From NCBI RefSeq assembly GCF_016907695.1, contig NZ_JAFBCK010000001.1, positions 2,466,001 through 2,530,000 of the forward strand: a stretch of DNA of 64,000 nt. The letters are read 5' to 3'. The DNA comes from Actinokineospora baliensis. GTDB taxonomy: Bacteria > Actinomycetota > Actinomycetes > Mycobacteriales > Pseudonocardiaceae. Shown here in pieces: positions 6,310-38,720 of the stretch. The notes under the pieces are model-generated. The model was not told where the DNA came from and searched no databases. It saw nothing but the letters and a program-made list of their open reading frames with translations. Both the position numbers and the translations under genes were made by a program. Each line of letters starts with the position of its first letter. The first letter of the stretch is position 1.

Positions 6310-7593
6310 GTGACCGTTTCCCAGCCGTACCGCTACACCCTCGCCAACGGCCTGCGGGTTGTCCTCGCCCCCGACGACACCGCGCCGGTCGTCGGCGTCA
6401 GCGTGCACTACGACGTGGGCTTCCGCTCCGAGCCGGAGGGCAGGACCGGGTTCGCGCACCTGTTCGAGCACCTGATGTTCCAGGGCAGCGAGAGCTTGGA
6501 GAAGCTGGCGCACTTCCGGCACGTGCAATCCTCCGGCGGCACCTTCAACGGGTCCACCCACCCGGACTACACCGACTACTTCGAGGTCCTGCCCTCGGCC
6601 GCCCTGGAGCGCGCGCTGTTCCTGGAGGCCGACCGGATGCGCGCCCCCAAGCTCACCGAGGAGAACCTGCGCAACCAGATCGACGTGGTGAAGGAGGAGA
6701 TCCGGCTCAACGTGCTCAACCGCCCCTACGGCGGTTTCCCGTGGATCCTGCTCCCGCCGGTGCTGTTCGACACCTTCCCCAACGCGCACAACGGCTACGG
6801 CGGGTTCGAGGACCTCGAGCAGGCCACGGTCGCCGACTGCGCCGCGTTCTTCGACACCTACTACGCCCCGGCCAACGCCGTGCTCACCGTCGCGGGCGAC
6901 TTCACCGTCGAGGCGGCCAAGGAGCTCGTCGAACGCCACTTCGGCGACGTCCCGGCCCGGCCCCGGCCGCAGCGCCCCTCCTTCGCCGAGCCGCCGCCCA
7001 CCGCCGAGGTCCGCGCCGACCACCCGGACCCGCTGGCCCCGCTGCCCGCCGTCGCGATCGGGTACCGCATCCCGGACCCGATCGAAGAACTCGACGCCTA
7101 CCTGGCGTACCTGGTCCTCGCGGGCGTCCTCACCGACGGCGACGGCTCCCGCCTGCAGCAGCGCCTGGTCTACGGCGACCAGCTGGTCACCGAGGTCAGC
7201 GCGGGCTGCGGCATGTTCGGCCCCTTCGAGGCCCGCGACCCGGACACCTTCACCATCACCGCGATGTACTCCCCCGAGGTGGCGCTGGACCCGGTCCTGG
7301 CCGCCATCGACGAGGAACTCGAGCGCCTGGCCAGCACCCCGCCGGACCCCGCGGAACTGGCCAAGATCACCGCCCGCTGGGCCGCCAGCCTGCACAAGGA
7401 ACACGACCGCATCGTCAGCCGCACCCTGGCCCTCGGCGCCTTCGAACTCCTCTACGGCAACCCCGGCCTGGTCTACGAACTCCCCGAACGCATCAACGCC
7501 ATCACCCCCGACGCCGTCTCCGCCGCCGCCAAGGCCCTGCGCCCCGACTCCCGAGCCATCCTCACCATCACCCCCTCCGGCGGTGCCGAGTGA
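6310..7593 (+). CDS. M16 family zinc peptidase, catalytic subunit
   Basis: A 427-residue M16B (pitrilysin-like) peptidase. The inverted zinc motif HLFEH places ligands at H50 and H54 and the catalytic Glu at E53; EEIRLNV about 75 residues later supplies the distal Glu. The usual two-domain half-clam is complete through the R/Y-containing C-terminal half. A second M16 gene without the zinc motif lies downstream, matching the active/inactive pair seen in other bacteria, where the two form a heterodimer that degrades peptides. Unusually, the pair is separated by 849 bp. The gap is built from decayed copies of this gene's last ~129 bp (7465-7593). Confidence 0.9.
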   Translation: MTVSQPYRYTLANGLRVVLAPDDTAPVVGVSVHYDVGFRSEPEGRTGFAHLFEHLMFQGSESLEKLAHFRHVQSSGGTFNGSTHPDYTDYFEVLPSAALERALFLEADRMRAPKLTEENLRNQIDVVKEEIRLNVLNRPYGGFPWILLPPVLFDTFPNAHNGYGGFEDLEQATVADCAAFFDTYYAPANAVLTVAGDFTVEAAKELVERHFGDVPARPRPQRPSFAEPPPTAEVRADHPDPLAPLPAVAIGYRIPDPIEELDAYLAYLVLAGVLTDGDGSRLQQRLVYGDQLVTEVSAGCGMFGPFEARDPDTFTITAMYSPEVALDPVLAAIDEELERLASTPPDPAELAKITARWAASLHKEHDRIVSRTLALGAFELLYGNPGLVYELPERINAITPDAVSAAAKALRPDSRAILTITPSGGAE

Positions 7594-8309
7594 CGGATCT
7601 CCCCGCAGGCGCCACCCCCTTCACCCCGGCCGCTGTCGGCCTCGCACGCCCCGTTTCCCACGCCGTCGCCACCGGCGGCCTGCCCGGCGGTGGCCAGTGA
7701 TGGGCCTGGTTTGCGGGCTCGTCGAGCACGCCTCTCCTTGTGCCTCGGCTGCGGTCGGGGCCGTGGGTCCCGCTGCTCGCGTCACTGTCACTCCCTTCGG
7801 CGGTGCCGAGTGATGGGCCTGGCCTACGAGCTCTCGGAGCGCACTGCTCCCTTCATCCCGGCCGCTGTCGGGGCTGAACAGCCCGCTTCTCGTGCCATCG
7901 GCACCGTCACCCCCTTGGCGGTGTCGAGCGACGGGCCTGGTTTGCGGTTCCCCGAGTGCGCTGCTCCTTCTGCCCCGGTTGCGGTTGGGGCCGTGCGTCT
8001 CGTTTCCCGTGCCATCGGTCCCGTTGGCGGTGTCGGGTGATGGGCTTGGTCTACGAGTTCCTCGAGCGCGCCTGCACCCCAGCCGCTTTCAGGGGCCCTG
8101 CGCCCCGCTTCTCGCGCCGTCGTCACCGTCAACCCATTGGCGGTGTCGAGTAGTGGGCCTGGTCTACGAACTCCCCGAACGCGCCTACACCCCGGCCGCT
8201 GTCGGGGCCTTGCTGCGCCCCGCTTCTCGCGCCGTCGTCATCGGCTGGTCGGGCTCGGCGGTGGCGAGTGACAGTCGTGGTGCCACCGCCACCCGGCGGT
8301 GTCGTGTGA
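7594..8309 (+). repeat. Array of decayed tandem copies of the M16 gene 3' end
   Basis: The last 129 bp of the upstream M16 gene (7465-7593, protein GLVYELPER to SGGAE-stop) recur in the same orientation. Copies are at 7594-7700, 7701-7813, 7814-7931, 7932-8040, 8041-8153 and 8154-8271, with a short remnant at 8272-8309; units are about 107-119 bp. Several junctions read TGATG, so one unit's stop overlaps the next unit's ATG. Unit 2 gives a complete 37-residue frame (MGLVCGL to FGGAE). Units 3 and 4 are fused because the stop has become CGA. Unit 5 has compensating frame changes. The last unit's frame runs on to a TGA at 8444-8446 that overlaps the next M16 start. The stretch from 8310 to 8442 shows only faint similarity and ends in the AGGAGGA ribosome site. 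Confidence 0.85.
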
Positions 8310-8442
8310 TCAGCGCCGTCGCTCTCGATGCCGCGGCGGGTGCGCTCCGTGCCCCAGCGGGCATTGGCGCCGTCCGAACCATTTCCCCCGGTGCCGCGGG
8401 CGGGTCCCCGCGGTCACCCCACCTTCCCGCAGGAGGACAGCA

Positions 8443-9798
8443 GTGAGCCGCACCGCAGAGCAGATCGGGCGCACCGAGCTCGGGCCCCGACCGCTCCCCC
8501 CGCTCGGCGAGCAACGGGCGGCCACCAACCTGTCCGTTGTGGACACCGTGCTCGACAACGGGTTGCGGGTCATCGCCGTGCACCAGCCGACGGTGCCGAT
8601 GGTCGAGCTGCGGTTGCGGATCCCGTTCGCGGGCACGGATCCGGCGCACGCGCCGACCTCCGAGGTGTTGGCCGCGGCCCTGCTCACCGGGACCGCGACC
8701 CGCGACCGGGTCGCGGTGGACACCGAGCTCGCGCTGGTCGGCGGTGAGCTCAACGCCGCGGTGGACCCGGAGTTGCTCTCCCTCGGCGGCAACGCGCTGG
8801 CCAGCGGGTTCGACACGCTGCTCGCCGTGCTCGCCGACGCGCTGACGGCGGCGACGTACGCCGACGAGGAGGTGGCGGGGGAGAAGGCGCGGCTGGTCGA
8901 GCGGATCACCGTGGCCAGGTCCAAGCCCAGCGTCATCGCCCGCCAGGCGTTGCAGCGGCACCGCTACGGCGACCACCCGTTCACCAAGGAGATCCCCGAG
9001 GCCGCCGAGGTGGCCAAGGTCGAGCCAGCCGACGTCCGGGCGCTGCACCGGGCCGCGGTGCTGCCGCGGGGCGCGGTCCTCGTGGTCGTCGGTGACGTCG
9101 AGCCGGTCGAGGCTGTCGCCGGGGTCGCCGCCGCCCTGGCCGACTGGCGCGGTGACGGGGCGGCGTCGGTGCTGCCGCCGCTGCCCCCGCTCACCCCGGG
9201 CGACCTGCTGGTCATCGACCGGCCGGGCGCGGTCCAGTCGCAGATCCGGCTCAGCGCGCAGTCGATCACTCGCACCGACCCGCGCTACCCGGCCCTGCAG
9301 TTGGCCAACCTGGCCTTCGGCGGGTTCTTCTCCTCCCGCCTGGTGGAGAACATCCGCGAGGACAAGGGCTACACCTACCACGCCCGCTCCTACCCGGAGT
9401 TCACCCCGGACGGCGCGACGCTGCTCATCGACACCGACACCGCCAGCGACGTCACCGCCGCGGCGCTGCTGGAGATCCGCTACGAGCTGGGCAGGATGGC
9501 ACTGGTCGCGCCAGCGGAGTCCGAAGTGGACATCGTGCGCCAGTACGCCATCGGTTCCCTGCTCACCAGCACCTCCTCCCAGGGCGGCCTCGCCTCCCAG
9601 ATCGCCGCCCTCGCCGTCCTCGGCCTCGGCGTCGACTGGCTGGTCACCCACCCCGAGCGCCTCAAGGCCGTCACCGCAGACCAGGTCGCCGAAGCCGCCG
9701 CCGAGTTCTTCGCCCCCACCCGCTTCACCGGCATCATCGTCGGCGACGTGGCCAAACTGTCCCCCCTCACCCGCATCGGCGGCATCCGCCTCCCGTGA
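8443..9798 (+). CDS. M16 family peptidase-like protein, non-catalytic subunit
   Basis: A 451-residue M16 homologue. It keeps the two-domain fold and the C-terminal arginine/tyrosine region (YTYHARSYPEF), but where the zinc motif belongs it reads TDPAHAPTSEV, with no HxxEH. This is typical of the inactive beta-type partner that pairs with a zinc-bearing M16 subunit such as the gene at 6310. GTG 8443 is chosen because AGGAGGA precedes it; the frame stays open further upstream to 8299 only by reading through the repeat array's tail. The GTG overlaps the TGA of the last repeat-derived frame, so it could be translationally coupled to it. A hairpin follows the stop. Confidence 0.88.
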   Translation: MSRTAEQIGRTELGPRPLPPLGEQRAATNLSVVDTVLDNGLRVIAVHQPTVPMVELRLRIPFAGTDPAHAPTSEVLAAALLTGTATRDRVAVDTELALVGGELNAAVDPELLSLGGNALASGFDTLLAVLADALTAATYADEEVAGEKARLVERITVARSKPSVIARQALQRHRYGDHPFTKEIPEAAEVAKVEPADVRALHRAAVLPRGAVLVVVGDVEPVEAVAGVAAALADWRGDGAASVLPPLPPLTPGDLLVIDRPGAVQSQIRLSAQSITRTDPRYPALQLANLAFGGFFSSRLVENIREDKGYTYHARSYPEFTPDGATLLIDTDTASDVTAAALLEIRYELGRMALVAPAESEVDIVRQYAIGSLLTSTSSQGGLASQIAALAVLGLGVDWLVTHPERLKAVTADQVAEAAAEFFAPTRFTGIIVGDVAKLSPLTRIGGIRLP

Positions 9799-30981: not shown

Positions 30982-33892
30982 GCGCGAGCGGGACGCCCTC
31001 GCGCCCTATCCGGCGGGACATCCGCACGACCGAGCACCGCAACCCGGTCGCACCAGGCACAGCGCGCGCTACCAGCAGGCCCAGGCGCCGCGCGGGGGCA
31101 AGCGCCTGCCCGGTGAGTCCGCCATCCCCAGCTACACCCCCGAGATCTCCGCCCGCACCATCGACGGGCACCTGCTGCGCACCGGCACCGACGTCTACGC
31201 CTGGTACCGCCTCGCCCCGCAGCGCTGGTCGTTCCGCTCCGACTCGCAGCGCCAGGACCTGATCGCCGCCATCGCGGGCCAGTACGCCGAGCTGGCGGGC
31301 CGCTGGCTGCACCTGCGGGTCACCACCCGGCCGTACCCGATCCGGATGTGGGCCGAGGCGCACGTGCACAACGCGGTCAACCGGCTGCCGGACGTGCCGG
31401 GCGCGTTGAGCTTCGACGACTACCTCATCGGCGAGCAGCAGCAGCTCCTCGGCCGCTCCATGGCCGAGAAGGAGGTCTACCTCGGCGTCCAGGTGCAGAC
31501 CCGCAACGTGGTCGACCGGGCCGTCGAGCGCGCCGCCCCGTTGCTGCGCAAGGTCTTCCCGGACGCGGTGGACGCCGAGCTGCTGGCCATCGAGAGCGAG
31601 GTCGAGCACCTCGACCAGGTCATCGGGTCCGCCGGGCTGGAGGGCCGCCCGGCCACCGCCGAGGAGATGTCCTGGCTGATGCACCGGTCCTGCTCGCTGG
31701 GGCTGCCCGCGCCGCGCAACATGCCCGCGGTGCCCGGGGCCGCCTGGGAGCCGGAGGACCTGGCCAGCTTCACCGACGCCGCCGACTTCCACCAGGACCC
31801 GTACGCCCCGACGGTCACCGTGCGCGGCCGAACCGGGTCCAACGCCGGGGTCACCCGGCACGTCACCGTGCTGACCGTGGGCATGATGCACGGCCTGCAG
31901 ATCCCCGAGATCGACGACCCGTGGGTCCAGCGCAGCGACCGGCTGCCCGCCTCGGTGGAGTGGTCGGCGCGGATCTACGTGCGCAAGCCGGAGGAGGTCT
32001 CCGGCGAGCTGCAGCGGCAGATGAACAAGGTCCGCTCGCAGGTCAAGCACTACACCGACGAGCACGAGCTGGAGCCGCCGCAGTCGCTGGCCAGGCAGGC
32101 GAGCCGGGTGCTGGAGATCGACGACGAGATGACCTCCGGCTTCACCGCGCTGGCCACCCGGGTCCGCTCGTGGTGGCGGCTGGCGGTGTCCGGCCCGACC
32201 GAGCGCGACGCGTTGCGGCTGGCCCAGCAGCTGCTCGACCTCTACAAGCCGAAGGTGGCCATCGAGCACCCCGAGGCCCAGTACGCGATGGCCCGCGAGT
32301 TCATCCCGGGCGAACCGCTGGCCTCCAGCGCCTACCTGCGCCGCGGGTCCGTGGTCTGGGCGGCTTCGGCGGTGCCGACCGCGACCGCCGAGGTGGGTGA
32401 CCGCCGCGGCATCCTGCTCGGCGAGACCTGCACCGCCACCCGCCGCCCGGTCGCCTGGGACCCGTGGATGGCGCAGGAGATCCGCGACGGCTCTGGGCTC
32501 ACGGCGATGGTCGCGGGCCTCGGTGGCGGTAAGTCCTTCCTCGGCGGCGGCATCGTCTACAAGACGCTGCGTGCAGGGGCGCACTGGACGATCCTCGACC
32601 CGTCCGGTCCGCTCGCCCGGCTGTGCGACCTGCCGGAGCTGCGGCCTTACGCCCGGCCGATCAACCTGCTCAACGCGCAGGCGGGCATCCTCAACCCGTA
32701 CCGGGTGGTGGCCGAGCCCAAGATCGACCACTTCCTCGACGAGGAGGATCCCGAGCGCGCTTGGCGTCGGGAGAAGGCGCTCGCCGCCGCGACCCGCCGC
32801 CGCTTGGTGCTCGACGTGCTCACCGGCTTGCTGCCCTACGAGGTCGCCCGGCTGCCGCAGAGCCGGATCGTGCTGCTGCGCGCTGTGCGGACCGTGGGCG
32901 GGCGCGCCGACGCGGACCCGAGCCTGGTGTTCGACGCACTGCGCCGCGACGCCAGCGAGCACCACGAGCACGCCGTAGTGGTCGCGGACTTCCTCGACGA
33001 GATGAAGGAGCGGATGTCGCTGCTCATCCCCGAGCGCGGCGCCGACCCCTACAACGAGCAGCGCGACGACCGGATGACCGTGCTGACCATGGCGGGCCTA
33101 ACGCTGCCCAAGGACGGCGTAGGCCGCGAGCACTGGACCGACGCGGAGTCCCTCGGCGTCGAGATGCTCAACCTGGCCGCCTGGCTCACGCAGCGCTCCA
33201 TCTACGACCGCCCCAAGGACATGCGCAAGGGCGTGTGGATCGACGAGGCGTTCTTCCTCTCCGAGGTGCCCACCGGCCGGGTGCTGATGAACCGGTTCGC
33301 CCGCGACTCCCGCAAGTGGAACGTGCGGGTGCTGCTGTCCTCGCAGATCCCGGCCGACTTCCTCAAGATCCAGGGCTTCGTGGCGCTGCTGGACTCGGTG
33401 TTCATCGGCAGGCTCGACGACGACGCCGCCCAGGCGGACGCGTTGCGGCTGCTCAAGGTGCCGGTCGGCGCGGGCTACGAGCAGGTGGTGGCCAGCCTGG
33501 GCCGCCGCCCCGGCGCGCACCGCGGCATGGTCGAGCGCGACACCGCGCCCCGGCAGTTCATCTTCGGCGACGGCGCCGGTGGTGTGGAGCGCATCCGCAT
33601 CGACCTCTCCGGTGAGCACCTCGACCACCTGCGCACCGTCATGGACACCACCCCCGACGCGCAGCGCGAGTCCGCGCGCGCCGTCGCGGCGCCCGAGCTC
33701 CCGGCGCCGACCCCGCCGAGCGAGTACGAGTTCGAGCCGCTCGACGGCACCGTCGCCACCGACGAGGAGTTCGAGCGGGCGGCGGAGTTCGAGCTGGGTC
33801 TGACCGAGGAGGACTTCGTCGGGGAGCCGGTGCCCGGCGGCGGGGACGACCCGGAGGGCAAGAAGAAGCGCGACCGCGAGGACGCGGCATGA
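30965..33892 (+). CDS. VirB4-like AAA ATPase of a T4SS-like machine
   Basis: A 975-residue ATPase. The N-terminal half (to about residue 490) is the VirB4-type dimerisation/TraC-like region. The C-terminal half is a HerA/FtsK-type motor with Walker A GLGGGKS (K523) and Walker B VWIDE (D760-E761). The tail is acidic. It powers substrate transfer or pilus assembly at the membrane. GTG 30965 is chosen because GGGAGG lies 6 nt upstream, inside the end of the preceding gene. The TGA overlaps the ATG of a 37-codon frame that bridges to the membrane gene. It is the clearest T4SS marker of the locus. Confidence 0.85.
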   Translation: MFGRRKRERDALAPYPAGHPHDRAPQPGRTRHSARYQQAQAPRGGKRLPGESAIPSYTPEISARTIDGHLLRTGTDVYAWYRLAPQRWSFRSDSQRQDLIAAIAGQYAELAGRWLHLRVTTRPYPIRMWAEAHVHNAVNRLPDVPGALSFDDYLIGEQQQLLGRSMAEKEVYLGVQVQTRNVVDRAVERAAPLLRKVFPDAVDAELLAIESEVEHLDQVIGSAGLEGRPATAEEMSWLMHRSCSLGLPAPRNMPAVPGAAWEPEDLASFTDAADFHQDPYAPTVTVRGRTGSNAGVTRHVTVLTVGMMHGLQIPEIDDPWVQRSDRLPASVEWSARIYVRKPEEVSGELQRQMNKVRSQVKHYTDEHELEPPQSLARQASRVLEIDDEMTSGFTALATRVRSWWRLAVSGPTERDALRLAQQLLDLYKPKVAIEHPEAQYAMAREFIPGEPLASSAYLRRGSVVWAASAVPTATAEVGDRRGILLGETCTATRRPVAWDPWMAQEIRDGSGLTAMVAGLGGGKSFLGGGIVYKTLRAGAHWTILDPSGPLARLCDLPELRPYARPINLLNAQAGILNPYRVVAEPKIDHFLDEEDPERAWRREKALAAATRRRLVLDVLTGLLPYEVARLPQSRIVLLRAVRTVGGRADADPSLVFDALRRDASEHHEHAVVVADFLDEMKERMSLLIPERGADPYNEQRDDRMTVLTMAGLTLPKDGVGREHWTDAESLGVEMLNLAAWLTQRSIYDRPKDMRKGVWIDEAFFLSEVPTGRVLMNRFARDSRKWNVRVLLSSQIPADFLKIQGFVALLDSVFIGRLDDDAAQADALRLLKVPVGAGYEQVVASLGRRPGAHRGMVERDTAPRQFIFGDGAGGVERIRIDLSGEHLDHLRTVMDTTPDAQRESARAVAAPELPAPTPPSEYEFEPLDGTVATDEEFERAAEFELGLTEEDFVGEPVPGGGDDPEGKKKRDREDAA

Positions 33893-34002
33893 ACCTCGGC
33901 GCGGACCCTGTCCGCGACCGTGACCGGTTGGCTAAGTTGATCAAGCTAGTGGCACTCGTGTCTGGTAACCCGAGCCCGGCGAGGTTGGTGGACGTCACAT
34001 GA
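33889..34002 (+). CDS. Possible 37-residue bridging peptide
   Basis: A frame starts with ATG overlapping the VirB4 TGA (ATGA) and ends with a TGA overlapping the next gene's ATG (ATGA). It is 37 residues, MNLGADPVRDRDR to ARLVDVT, hydrophilic then mildly hydrophobic. Exact overlaps at both ends argue for translation, at least as a coupling device. Codons such as CTA, GCT and TTG are unlike the neighbours, so the stretch may instead hold an internal promoter. Confidence 0.35.
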   Translation: MNLGADPVRDRDRLAKLIKLVALVSGNPSPARLVDVT

Positions 34003-38402: not shown

Positions 38403-38720
38403 GGTCTCTCATGCGGGTTGGCCCCGCAGGGGGCGTTCAGCATCCCCGCCCAGCCCGCCCCGCCCGCCGCTGCGGCGACCCCGCACTCCCGGCCCGGTCA
38501 CCACATCGGTCGCGCCGTTCGGGCCTTCATCGCATGGCCGCTCAGGCGTTGTCGCGCAGCTGCCCCGCCTGCAGCTGTTCCGCCTGCTCCCGTCCCGGTC
38601 GTCCTCCCACACCACCGCAGCAGTCTCGTGCTCGCGTCCACCGCGGCACCCGACTCGCCGTCCCGATGTGCCGGTCATCAGCCTCAAGGCGCACGCCCTA
38701 GCTGCCCAGACGTCATCGCG
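38403..38720 (-). repeat. Decayed tandem copies of the M48 gene 3' end
   Basis: The 430-bp gap after the T4SS-like operon holds no gene. The segment 38540-38720 aligns, with gaps, to the last ~230 bp of the neighbouring M48 gene (38792-39022). Shared blocks include GCTCAGGCG then GTCGCGCAG, TTGTTCCGCC, CCCGATG and GCCCAGACGTC. Its flank (TCATCGCATGGCC) also matches the flank of the real gene end (TCATCGCTTGGCC). A more decayed third copy can be traced in about 38,403-38,520. Copies lie downstream of the gene's stop and in the same orientation, as at the M16 locus. Confidence 0.65.

Follow-up and report, generated by a model that had tools for sequence, protein, structure and literature searches.

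Decayed copies of a gene's own 3′ end between two M16 peptidase genes may be kept open as a translated bridge in Actinokineospora

Two neighbouring M16 peptidase genes of Actinokineospora baliensis, here called A and B, are separated by 850 bp, most of which is made up of diverged copies of the end of the first gene. This raises the question of where such copies come from, and whether they are debris or have a use for the gene pair. We studied them in a stretch of 64,000 nucleotides of contig NZ_JAFBCK010000001.1 (positions 2,466,001 to 2,530,000), referred to as the window, and in the genomes of related species. The window's own genome is labelled G000 and that of the nearest species G015.

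The repeat array and its origin

Gene A (6310..7593, + strand) encodes an M16 zinc peptidase, the catalytic subunit, with the Pfam domains PF00675 and PF05193 and the zinc motif HxxEH in the form HLFEH. Gene B (8443..9798, +) encodes, according to Pfam, a second M16 peptidase, the inactive partner subunit, in which HxxEH is absent. The product of A matched PDB entry 3amj_C, 'zinc peptidase active subunit' (E=3.8e-43), and the top PDB match of the B product was 3amj_B, 'zinc peptidase inactive subunit' (E=2.1e-31). Since these are the active and inactive subunits of the same entry, the two products very likely form one heterodimer. As read from the sequence, B is preceded by the Shine-Dalgarno motif AGGAGG (8431..8436, +). 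Of the 16 species of the genus, 13 have an exact AGGAGG at this place and the remaining three have AGGAG or GGAGG.

The final 129 bp of A (7465..7593, +) are the source of six diverged head-to-tail units of 108-118 bp in the orientation of A, followed by a short remnant. The units are u1 (7594..7701), u2 (7702..7814), u3 (7815..7932), u4 (7933..8041), u5 (8042..8154) and u6 (8155..8272), all on the + strand, and the remnant of a further unit, assigned to the D2 family, lies at 8273..8310 (+). When compared with the gene A end, none of 1000 shuffles was as good as u2, u3, u5 or u6, and one of 1000 was as good as u4, for which the comparisons with u3 and with u5 both gave 0 of 1000. The most decayed unit, u1, is without the first part of the unit; in the pairwise comparison with the gene A end 21 of 1000 dinucleotide shuffles scored equally well, and a profile built from u2-u6 recovered it at E=2.7e-9. 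The remnant gave a weak profile match (E=0.13), with 3 of 1000 dinucleotide shuffles as good against the last 129 bp of A. Identity is 62-74% to the gene A end and 61-81% between units, and the 27 nt opening u6 (8156-8182) are identical to gene A.

Among the five unit-unit junctions, three read TGATG and one reads TAGTG; the u3/u4 junction has neither stop nor start, and u3 and u4 form a single fused reading frame. All these features, namely six same-orientation units with a remnant, TGATG overlaps and fusion by stop loss, had been proposed in a preliminary description of the sequence, and they hold. Tandem Repeats Finder at its default threshold did not detect the array.

All units have a deletion relative to the gene A end in common and fall into one clade with an ultrafast bootstrap of 100, the alignment being only slightly longer than 100 bases. 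The shared deletion and the single clade suggest that the array probably arose by amplification of a single decayed founder copy. As in tandem gene-end duplication, the units stem from the adjacent gene's own 3′ end and keep its orientation.

To see how common such copies are, we compared the last 130 bp of 491 genes of this genome with the DNA downstream of each, the genes being defined in sampled parts of the genome by a simple ORF and codon-position filter and not by annotation. Ten genes had a downstream match with a score of at least 50, compared to 0 of 1421 mismatched pairs. By our judgement about seven of the 491, A included, carry a real stop-anchored copy of their 3′ end; for this count paralogue-like neighbours (e.g. 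at L211) were removed by judgement and shorter stop-anchored copies were added. At the same score, other genomes gave 0 of 207 genes (G014), 2 of 214 (G036), 2 of 233 (G005, both in one related-gene cluster), 0 of 37 (G015) and 0 of 34 (G011). At 5 of 467 gene starts the DNA upstream also reached this score, with paralogues among the matches.

Own 3′-end copies were seen downstream of a nitronate monooxygenase gene (L148, 4478-4581), an alpha/beta hydrolase gene (L159, 9534-9651) and an M48 peptidase gene (window 38542-38661). The same genome also holds long noncoding arrays with a 61-bp period at L154 (7774-8729, 14 in-register copies), L204 (1430-1863) and L215 (7788-8363). In G036, which belongs to the same family, a gene has a 100% identical copy of its last 71 bp 91 bp downstream (L184, 9337-10503), and this match ends one base beyond the stop codon.

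Behind the 15 genus orthologues of the L148 and L159 genes, nothing comparable to their gene-end copies was found (best scores 37 and 34, respectively). At L148, the clearest case, the flank behind the stop is present three times in G000 and once in G015, G005 and G008, from which the 240-bp insert is absent. A possible remnant of this copy in G005 (score 37, 1 of 400 shuffles as good) was not counted because the downstream flank that G005 shares begins at +1. We dropped the idea that gene-end copies always end exactly at the stop, which would have hinted at a special mechanism and was an artefact of cutting the query there; copies run past the stop at L148, L141, L182 and L150 in alignments and at window 38793 and L216 by sequence reading, with varying boundaries.

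Compared to G015, aligned non-ORF DNA is 89% identical and four-fold sites differ by 23%. The divergence of the units, 19-39%, is near or somewhat above this four-fold-site divergence from the nearest species. The proposal that the units diverged faster than the species split allows was therefore weakened, as the excess is only modest, and a loss of the array in G015 is possible. Five intergenic regions of the window are more than 150 bp longer or shorter in G000 than in G015; four of them lie between convergent genes, and the A-B gap is the sole same-strand region. The pattern fits ordinary tandem duplication, presumably filtered by what the genes tolerate. Judged from sequence comparison, the array is in origin a tandem duplication across the stop codon that has decayed and is lineage-specific.

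These observations also suit an entirely neutral explanation. A duplication across the stop leaves the gene intact, would be tolerated, and its copies would decay; the open chain of frames described below would then be a by-product of the high GC content, with few stops, and of the copied GTGA/TGATG junction. The recurrence of this kind of duplication at about seven sampled genes including A, the lack of counterparts at the orthologues of two of them, the absence of the L148 insert from three species and a unit divergence in the range of four-fold sites all speak for it. We nevertheless regard this explanation as rather unlikely, because of the same gap in the other species.

Open frames across the gap in Actinokineospora

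In the window, five frames link the stop of A to the start of B without a gap, and successive overlaps are 1 or 4 nt. Frame 1 (7590..7700, +; GTG start, 36 aa) begins in the GTGA that contains A's stop, a 4-nt overlap. Frame 2 (7697..7813, +) starts at GTG 7697 or ATG 7700 and codes for 38 or 37 aa, frame 3 (7810..8040, +), the fused u3 and u4, at GTG 7810 or ATG 7813 for 76 or 75 aa, and frame 4 (8037..8153, +) at GTG 8037 or ATG 8040 for 38 or 37 aa. Frame 5 (8153..8446, +; GTG start, 97 aa) runs from u6 via the remnant to B, where its TGA and B's GTG form a 4-nt overlap. The junctions read, in order, GTGA, GTGATG, GTGATG, GTGATG, TAGTG and GTGA, so that each has the -4 or -1 stop/start overlap of coupled gene pairs. 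Codon bias of these frames is weak (GC3 0.71-0.83). The chain in the window is by itself only mildly unexpected (P about 0.05-0.10), which again suits the neutral explanation.

The A gene of G015 is 95% identical to that of the window, and its A-B gap is 86 bp. The other gaps in the genus are 942, 127, 41, 439, 455, 524, 116, 134, 113, 32, 34, 62 and 47 bp, and in G012 A and B overlap directly. A DNA search of the genus, with one genome for each species and limited candidates scored per genome, found no such array in the 15 other species, and the unit profile, run on those of their gaps that exceed 40 nt, gave a best match of E=2.3. An array common to sister species was rejected on these grounds. 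Counter to strict uniqueness, the beginning of the G011 gap is similar to a 29-nt piece of the G000 remnant (86%, E=7e-4). In the first 90 nt of that gap (L032) the two opening frames end in PGGSA and PGGIA, like the GGAE of A; small gene-end units may have existed earlier, also in G011.

The gaps of G011 (period 27/108), G008 (111) and G003 (33) have tandem repeats of their own, for which no significant similarity to A's end was found. Only short pieces are common to the long fillers: G003 and G011 have stretches of 37 and 17 nt in common, and G000 and G011 the 29 nt. Furthermore, 42 nt of the flank adjacent to B are common to G000 and G015. Part of the G011 filler (gap positions 483-711) belongs to a dispersed intergenic hairpin-like family of ~220 bp with inverted-repeat character, for which G000, G011 and G015 each gave at least 43 matches. 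Part of the G003 filler belongs to another dispersed family of ~150 bp, present in G003 and G013, and the G008 filler matched its own locus only.

We defined a strict relay as a series of frames with ATG or GTG starts and overlaps of -4 or -1 only across a gap of at least 25 nt, a definition chosen once the window's chain was known. Such a relay is present in 14 of the 15 gapped Actinokineospora species (gaps 31-941 nt), or 13 of 14 without the window species, and in all five gaps of at least 300 nt. Ten of the other species have a single frame of 12-176 aa, G005 and G008 have two frames and G011 has three. The exception is A. fastidiosa (G001, gap of 33 nt), which has no strict relay and succeeds under a looser rule with an 8-nt overlap.

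Against equal-length random intergenic DNA placed between each species' own ends, the expected number of relays was 6.74 for the 14 of 15 observed (P=5.8e-8), a test that is conditional on those ends, A's stop already lying in ATGA or GTGA in 14 of 15. For gaps of at least 300 nt the numbers were 5 of 5 and 0.63 expected (P=5e-6), with the reservation that the long fillers are not wholly independent, as short pieces are common to G003/G011 and G000/G011. When the discovery species was excluded, we obtained 13 of 14 with 6.69 expected (P=1.1e-6) and, for the long gaps, 4 of 4 with 0.57 expected (P=9.5e-5). Dinucleotide shuffles gave P=1.4e-6 for the full set of 15 and, without the discovery species, P=1.4e-5 for all gaps and P=1.4e-4 for the long ones. 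All these P values treat related species as independent, and the short gaps, which share common descent, are not informative one by one.

As a background, we counted relays in four genomes at further same-strand gene pairs separated by 25-1000 nt, leniently accepting any start within the first 150 nt. They were present at 8 of 188, 6 of 65, 3 of 76 and 4 of 79 pairs, a frequency of 4-9%; these pairs are a looser control than the shuffles, since only 20-31% of their stops lie in [AG]TGA. Among the same-strand pairs of the window, followed in four species, only one other gapped pair is relayed in all four, by a 37-aa frame at window 33889-34002 (MNLGADPVRDRDRLAKLIKLVALVSGNPSPARLVDVT); the intergenic DNA there is identical in G015, and the frame is probably an unannotated small gene. 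At the pair after 9798, a relay is seen in G015 and not in G000 or G005, and G011 can be added if any start is allowed. In G011 another pair has gained a 493-nt gap, without a relay.

How fragile the relays are was estimated with random 1-nt indels. In the ten species in which one frame bridges the gap, the relay survived in 0-4% of trials, and in the window it survived in 70%. The window array is thus robust to frameshifts because of its built-in stop-start stations, and arrays of stop-start units may be favoured for recovery after frameshift. The neutral explanation has to account for relays in 13 of 14 other species with largely unrelated fillers, when the background at other gaps is 2-9%, and for their persistence when a single random indel destroys at least 96% of the single-frame relays.

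A second alternative is that the gap encodes a fast-evolving small protein needed with the peptidase, the overlaps being those of an ordinary operon gene. Open frames of 12-286 aa do bridge A and B in 14 of the 15 gapped species, as this would predict. However, no sequence is shared across species except in the close pair G010/G014 and in short pieces, the length varies more than 20-fold, and G012 is without such a frame; in the window the frame is broken into five separate pieces with weak codon bias. We consider a small protein very improbable.

Proposed role of the frames and related systems

The reading that we find likely is that the array works as a ribosome relay, and that insertions at this site are kept only if translation from A to B would be continuous. 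The ancestral state appears to be a direct overlap of A and B. Translation of the two genes would normally be coupled through the 4-nt overlap GTGA. In Actinokineospora the stop of A would have shifted upstream, with the gap being refilled repeatedly by any available DNA; in the window species the 3′ end of A would have been duplicated across the stop, its founder copy amplified to six units, and the units left to drift. Only fillers with unbroken frames and 1- or 4-nt overlaps from A's stop to B's start would have been retained. An untranslated high-GC transcript would be exposed to Rho. The relay would hold ribosomes on the transcript, by termination-reinitiation coupling and/or by protection from Rho-dependent polarity, and B would still be produced in step with A. 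Both the use of the frames by ribosomes and selection for coupling or against polarity as the cause are inferred from sequence.

Reinitiation is nearly abolished by ~20 nt between genes (PMC10666635), and for this reason a filler of hundreds of nt would uncouple the two subunits. Further points stand against the relay, besides the weak codon bias of its frames and the modest P value of the window chain taken alone. B has a strong Shine-Dalgarno motif of its own, and it may start unaided or have part of the work done by this conserved motif. In addition, five successive reinitiations would be inefficient unless every step were strong.

The alternatives of decaying debris from repeated recombination and a chain of coupled mini-frames, between which the preliminary description left the choice, appear to apply at different levels: tandem duplication for the origin, and a chain for the retention, with which the data fit. 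Its interpretation is in this sense partly supported. It had noticed the mini-frames and overlooked that the series is complete from A to B; A's stop lies within the GTGA that opens the u1 frame, and the last frame extends beyond 8309 to 8446, where it overlaps B's GTG. Its suggestion of different copy numbers with the same phase in sister species was not borne out, as the array was not found there. Taken together, the evidence favours an array that is decayed duplication debris in origin and yet has been kept open as a putative translated bridge.

The individual parts are of known kinds, namely coupling, MIRU-like insertions and tandem duplication. Our search of mainly openly accessible literature found neither a relay of frames running across gene-end copies described, nor frame continuity conserved without sequence conservation at one locus. 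A gene whose own 3′ end is repeated in tandem just downstream is also known from E. coli tyrT, where 178-bp tandem repeats hold the tRNA 3′ end (rtT RNA); there, the gene is a tRNA gene, the copies are nearly identical and are not known to have a role in coupling. Short overlaps are enriched among genes for subunits of complexes (PMC10666635), and the -4/-1 coupling treated there has the same overlap geometry and also concerns complex-partner subunits. In the available text of that source, coupling joins two genes directly, whereas up to five filler frames intervene here. At rnc-fpg1 (ETR-F/VNTR3239), the M. tuberculosis complex has direct repeats of 279-358 bp in a gap that is 1-54 nt in other mycobacteria, and how strongly the gene downstream is expressed is related to the length of the repeats (PMC2734929). 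Those repeats are exact and direct, and the available text of PMC2734929 describes neither gene-end copies nor a frame relay.

If the relay exists, intergenic DNA can be under a strong constraint that sequence-conservation methods do not see, since only frame continuity is kept. It would show a route by which insertions into coupled operons become tolerable, and would explain non-conserved small frames between subunit genes. With five frames over 850 nt, the window would be a natural experiment on the distance over which ribosomes are handed along an operon, and the actinobacterial M16 pair offers a ready test set.

The A-B junction beyond the genus

We collected 94 A-B loci from 14 genomes of the same family and 80 named records, two of which repeat G001 and G002. 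With ATG, GTG and TTG starts allowed, 72 loci have a direct overlap of 4 or 1 nt, 15 are bridged by a strict relay and five have the B start at 0 or +2; an alternative start calling gave 65 direct overlaps (60 at -4 and 5 at -1). The remaining two loci, those of A. fastidiosa and Amycolatopsis acididurans (L072), are without any of these arrangements.

Eleven of the 15 relays belong to Micromonospora, where copy number does vary in the same gap, with a different unit: a 59-bp unit, which codes for 20 aa and has GTGA or ATGA at its junctions, is present once, twice or three times in gaps of 55, 114 or 173 nt, respectively. Other Micromonospora gaps measure 49 nt (18 aa), 58 nt (21 aa) or 175 nt, the last with three copies fused into 60 aa.

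MIRUs are repeats of 40-100 bp scattered across many genome loci (PMC2734929). They are intergenic, and their small frame, which overlaps the start of the next gene by 4 nt, is thought to soften the effect of insertion (PMC12548453). Could the array be a MIRU-like mobile repeat inserted at the A/B overlap? The logic of a small frame coupled at both sides is the same, with 4-nt overlaps at A's stop and at B's start in the window, and the Micromonospora gap is filled by one to three copies of a dispersed repeat with such a layout. However, the units derive from gene A itself. The array was also rejected as a dispersed repeat: in its own genome it matched only itself and A's end (34 of 224 first-look candidates scored), with no scatter over many loci among these. 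Unlike MIRUs, which form one dispersed family, the filler is locus-specific, comes from the host gene and is largely different in each species. A mobile repeat is scarcely credible as the source of the array.

A more general view would be that the conserved element at this junction is solely the continuity of translation, with the carrier DNA being replaced wholesale by gene-end copies, dispersed hairpins or MIRU-like repeats. We put this forward tentatively, as somewhat short of an even chance.

The Micromonospora repeat (L308-L317; L096, L112, L120 and others) has the core GAGCGCGAGGAGTGAGCCGG and the 20-aa frame VSARSEPGLRAPQSRT. In the same literature search no description of this element was found. 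It is dispersed; three genomes contain 17, 22 and 15 exact copies of the core. We inspected 10 of these 54 copies, at eight distinct sites of which one is the A-B locus; the flanking frames are open frames, assigned by their openness and not as genes. Judged by its layout, the repeat is a MIRU-like family, with the MIRU arrangement in another genus. In all 10 copies the frame of the unit begins in the TGA of the upstream open frame and overlaps the following frame by 4 nt.
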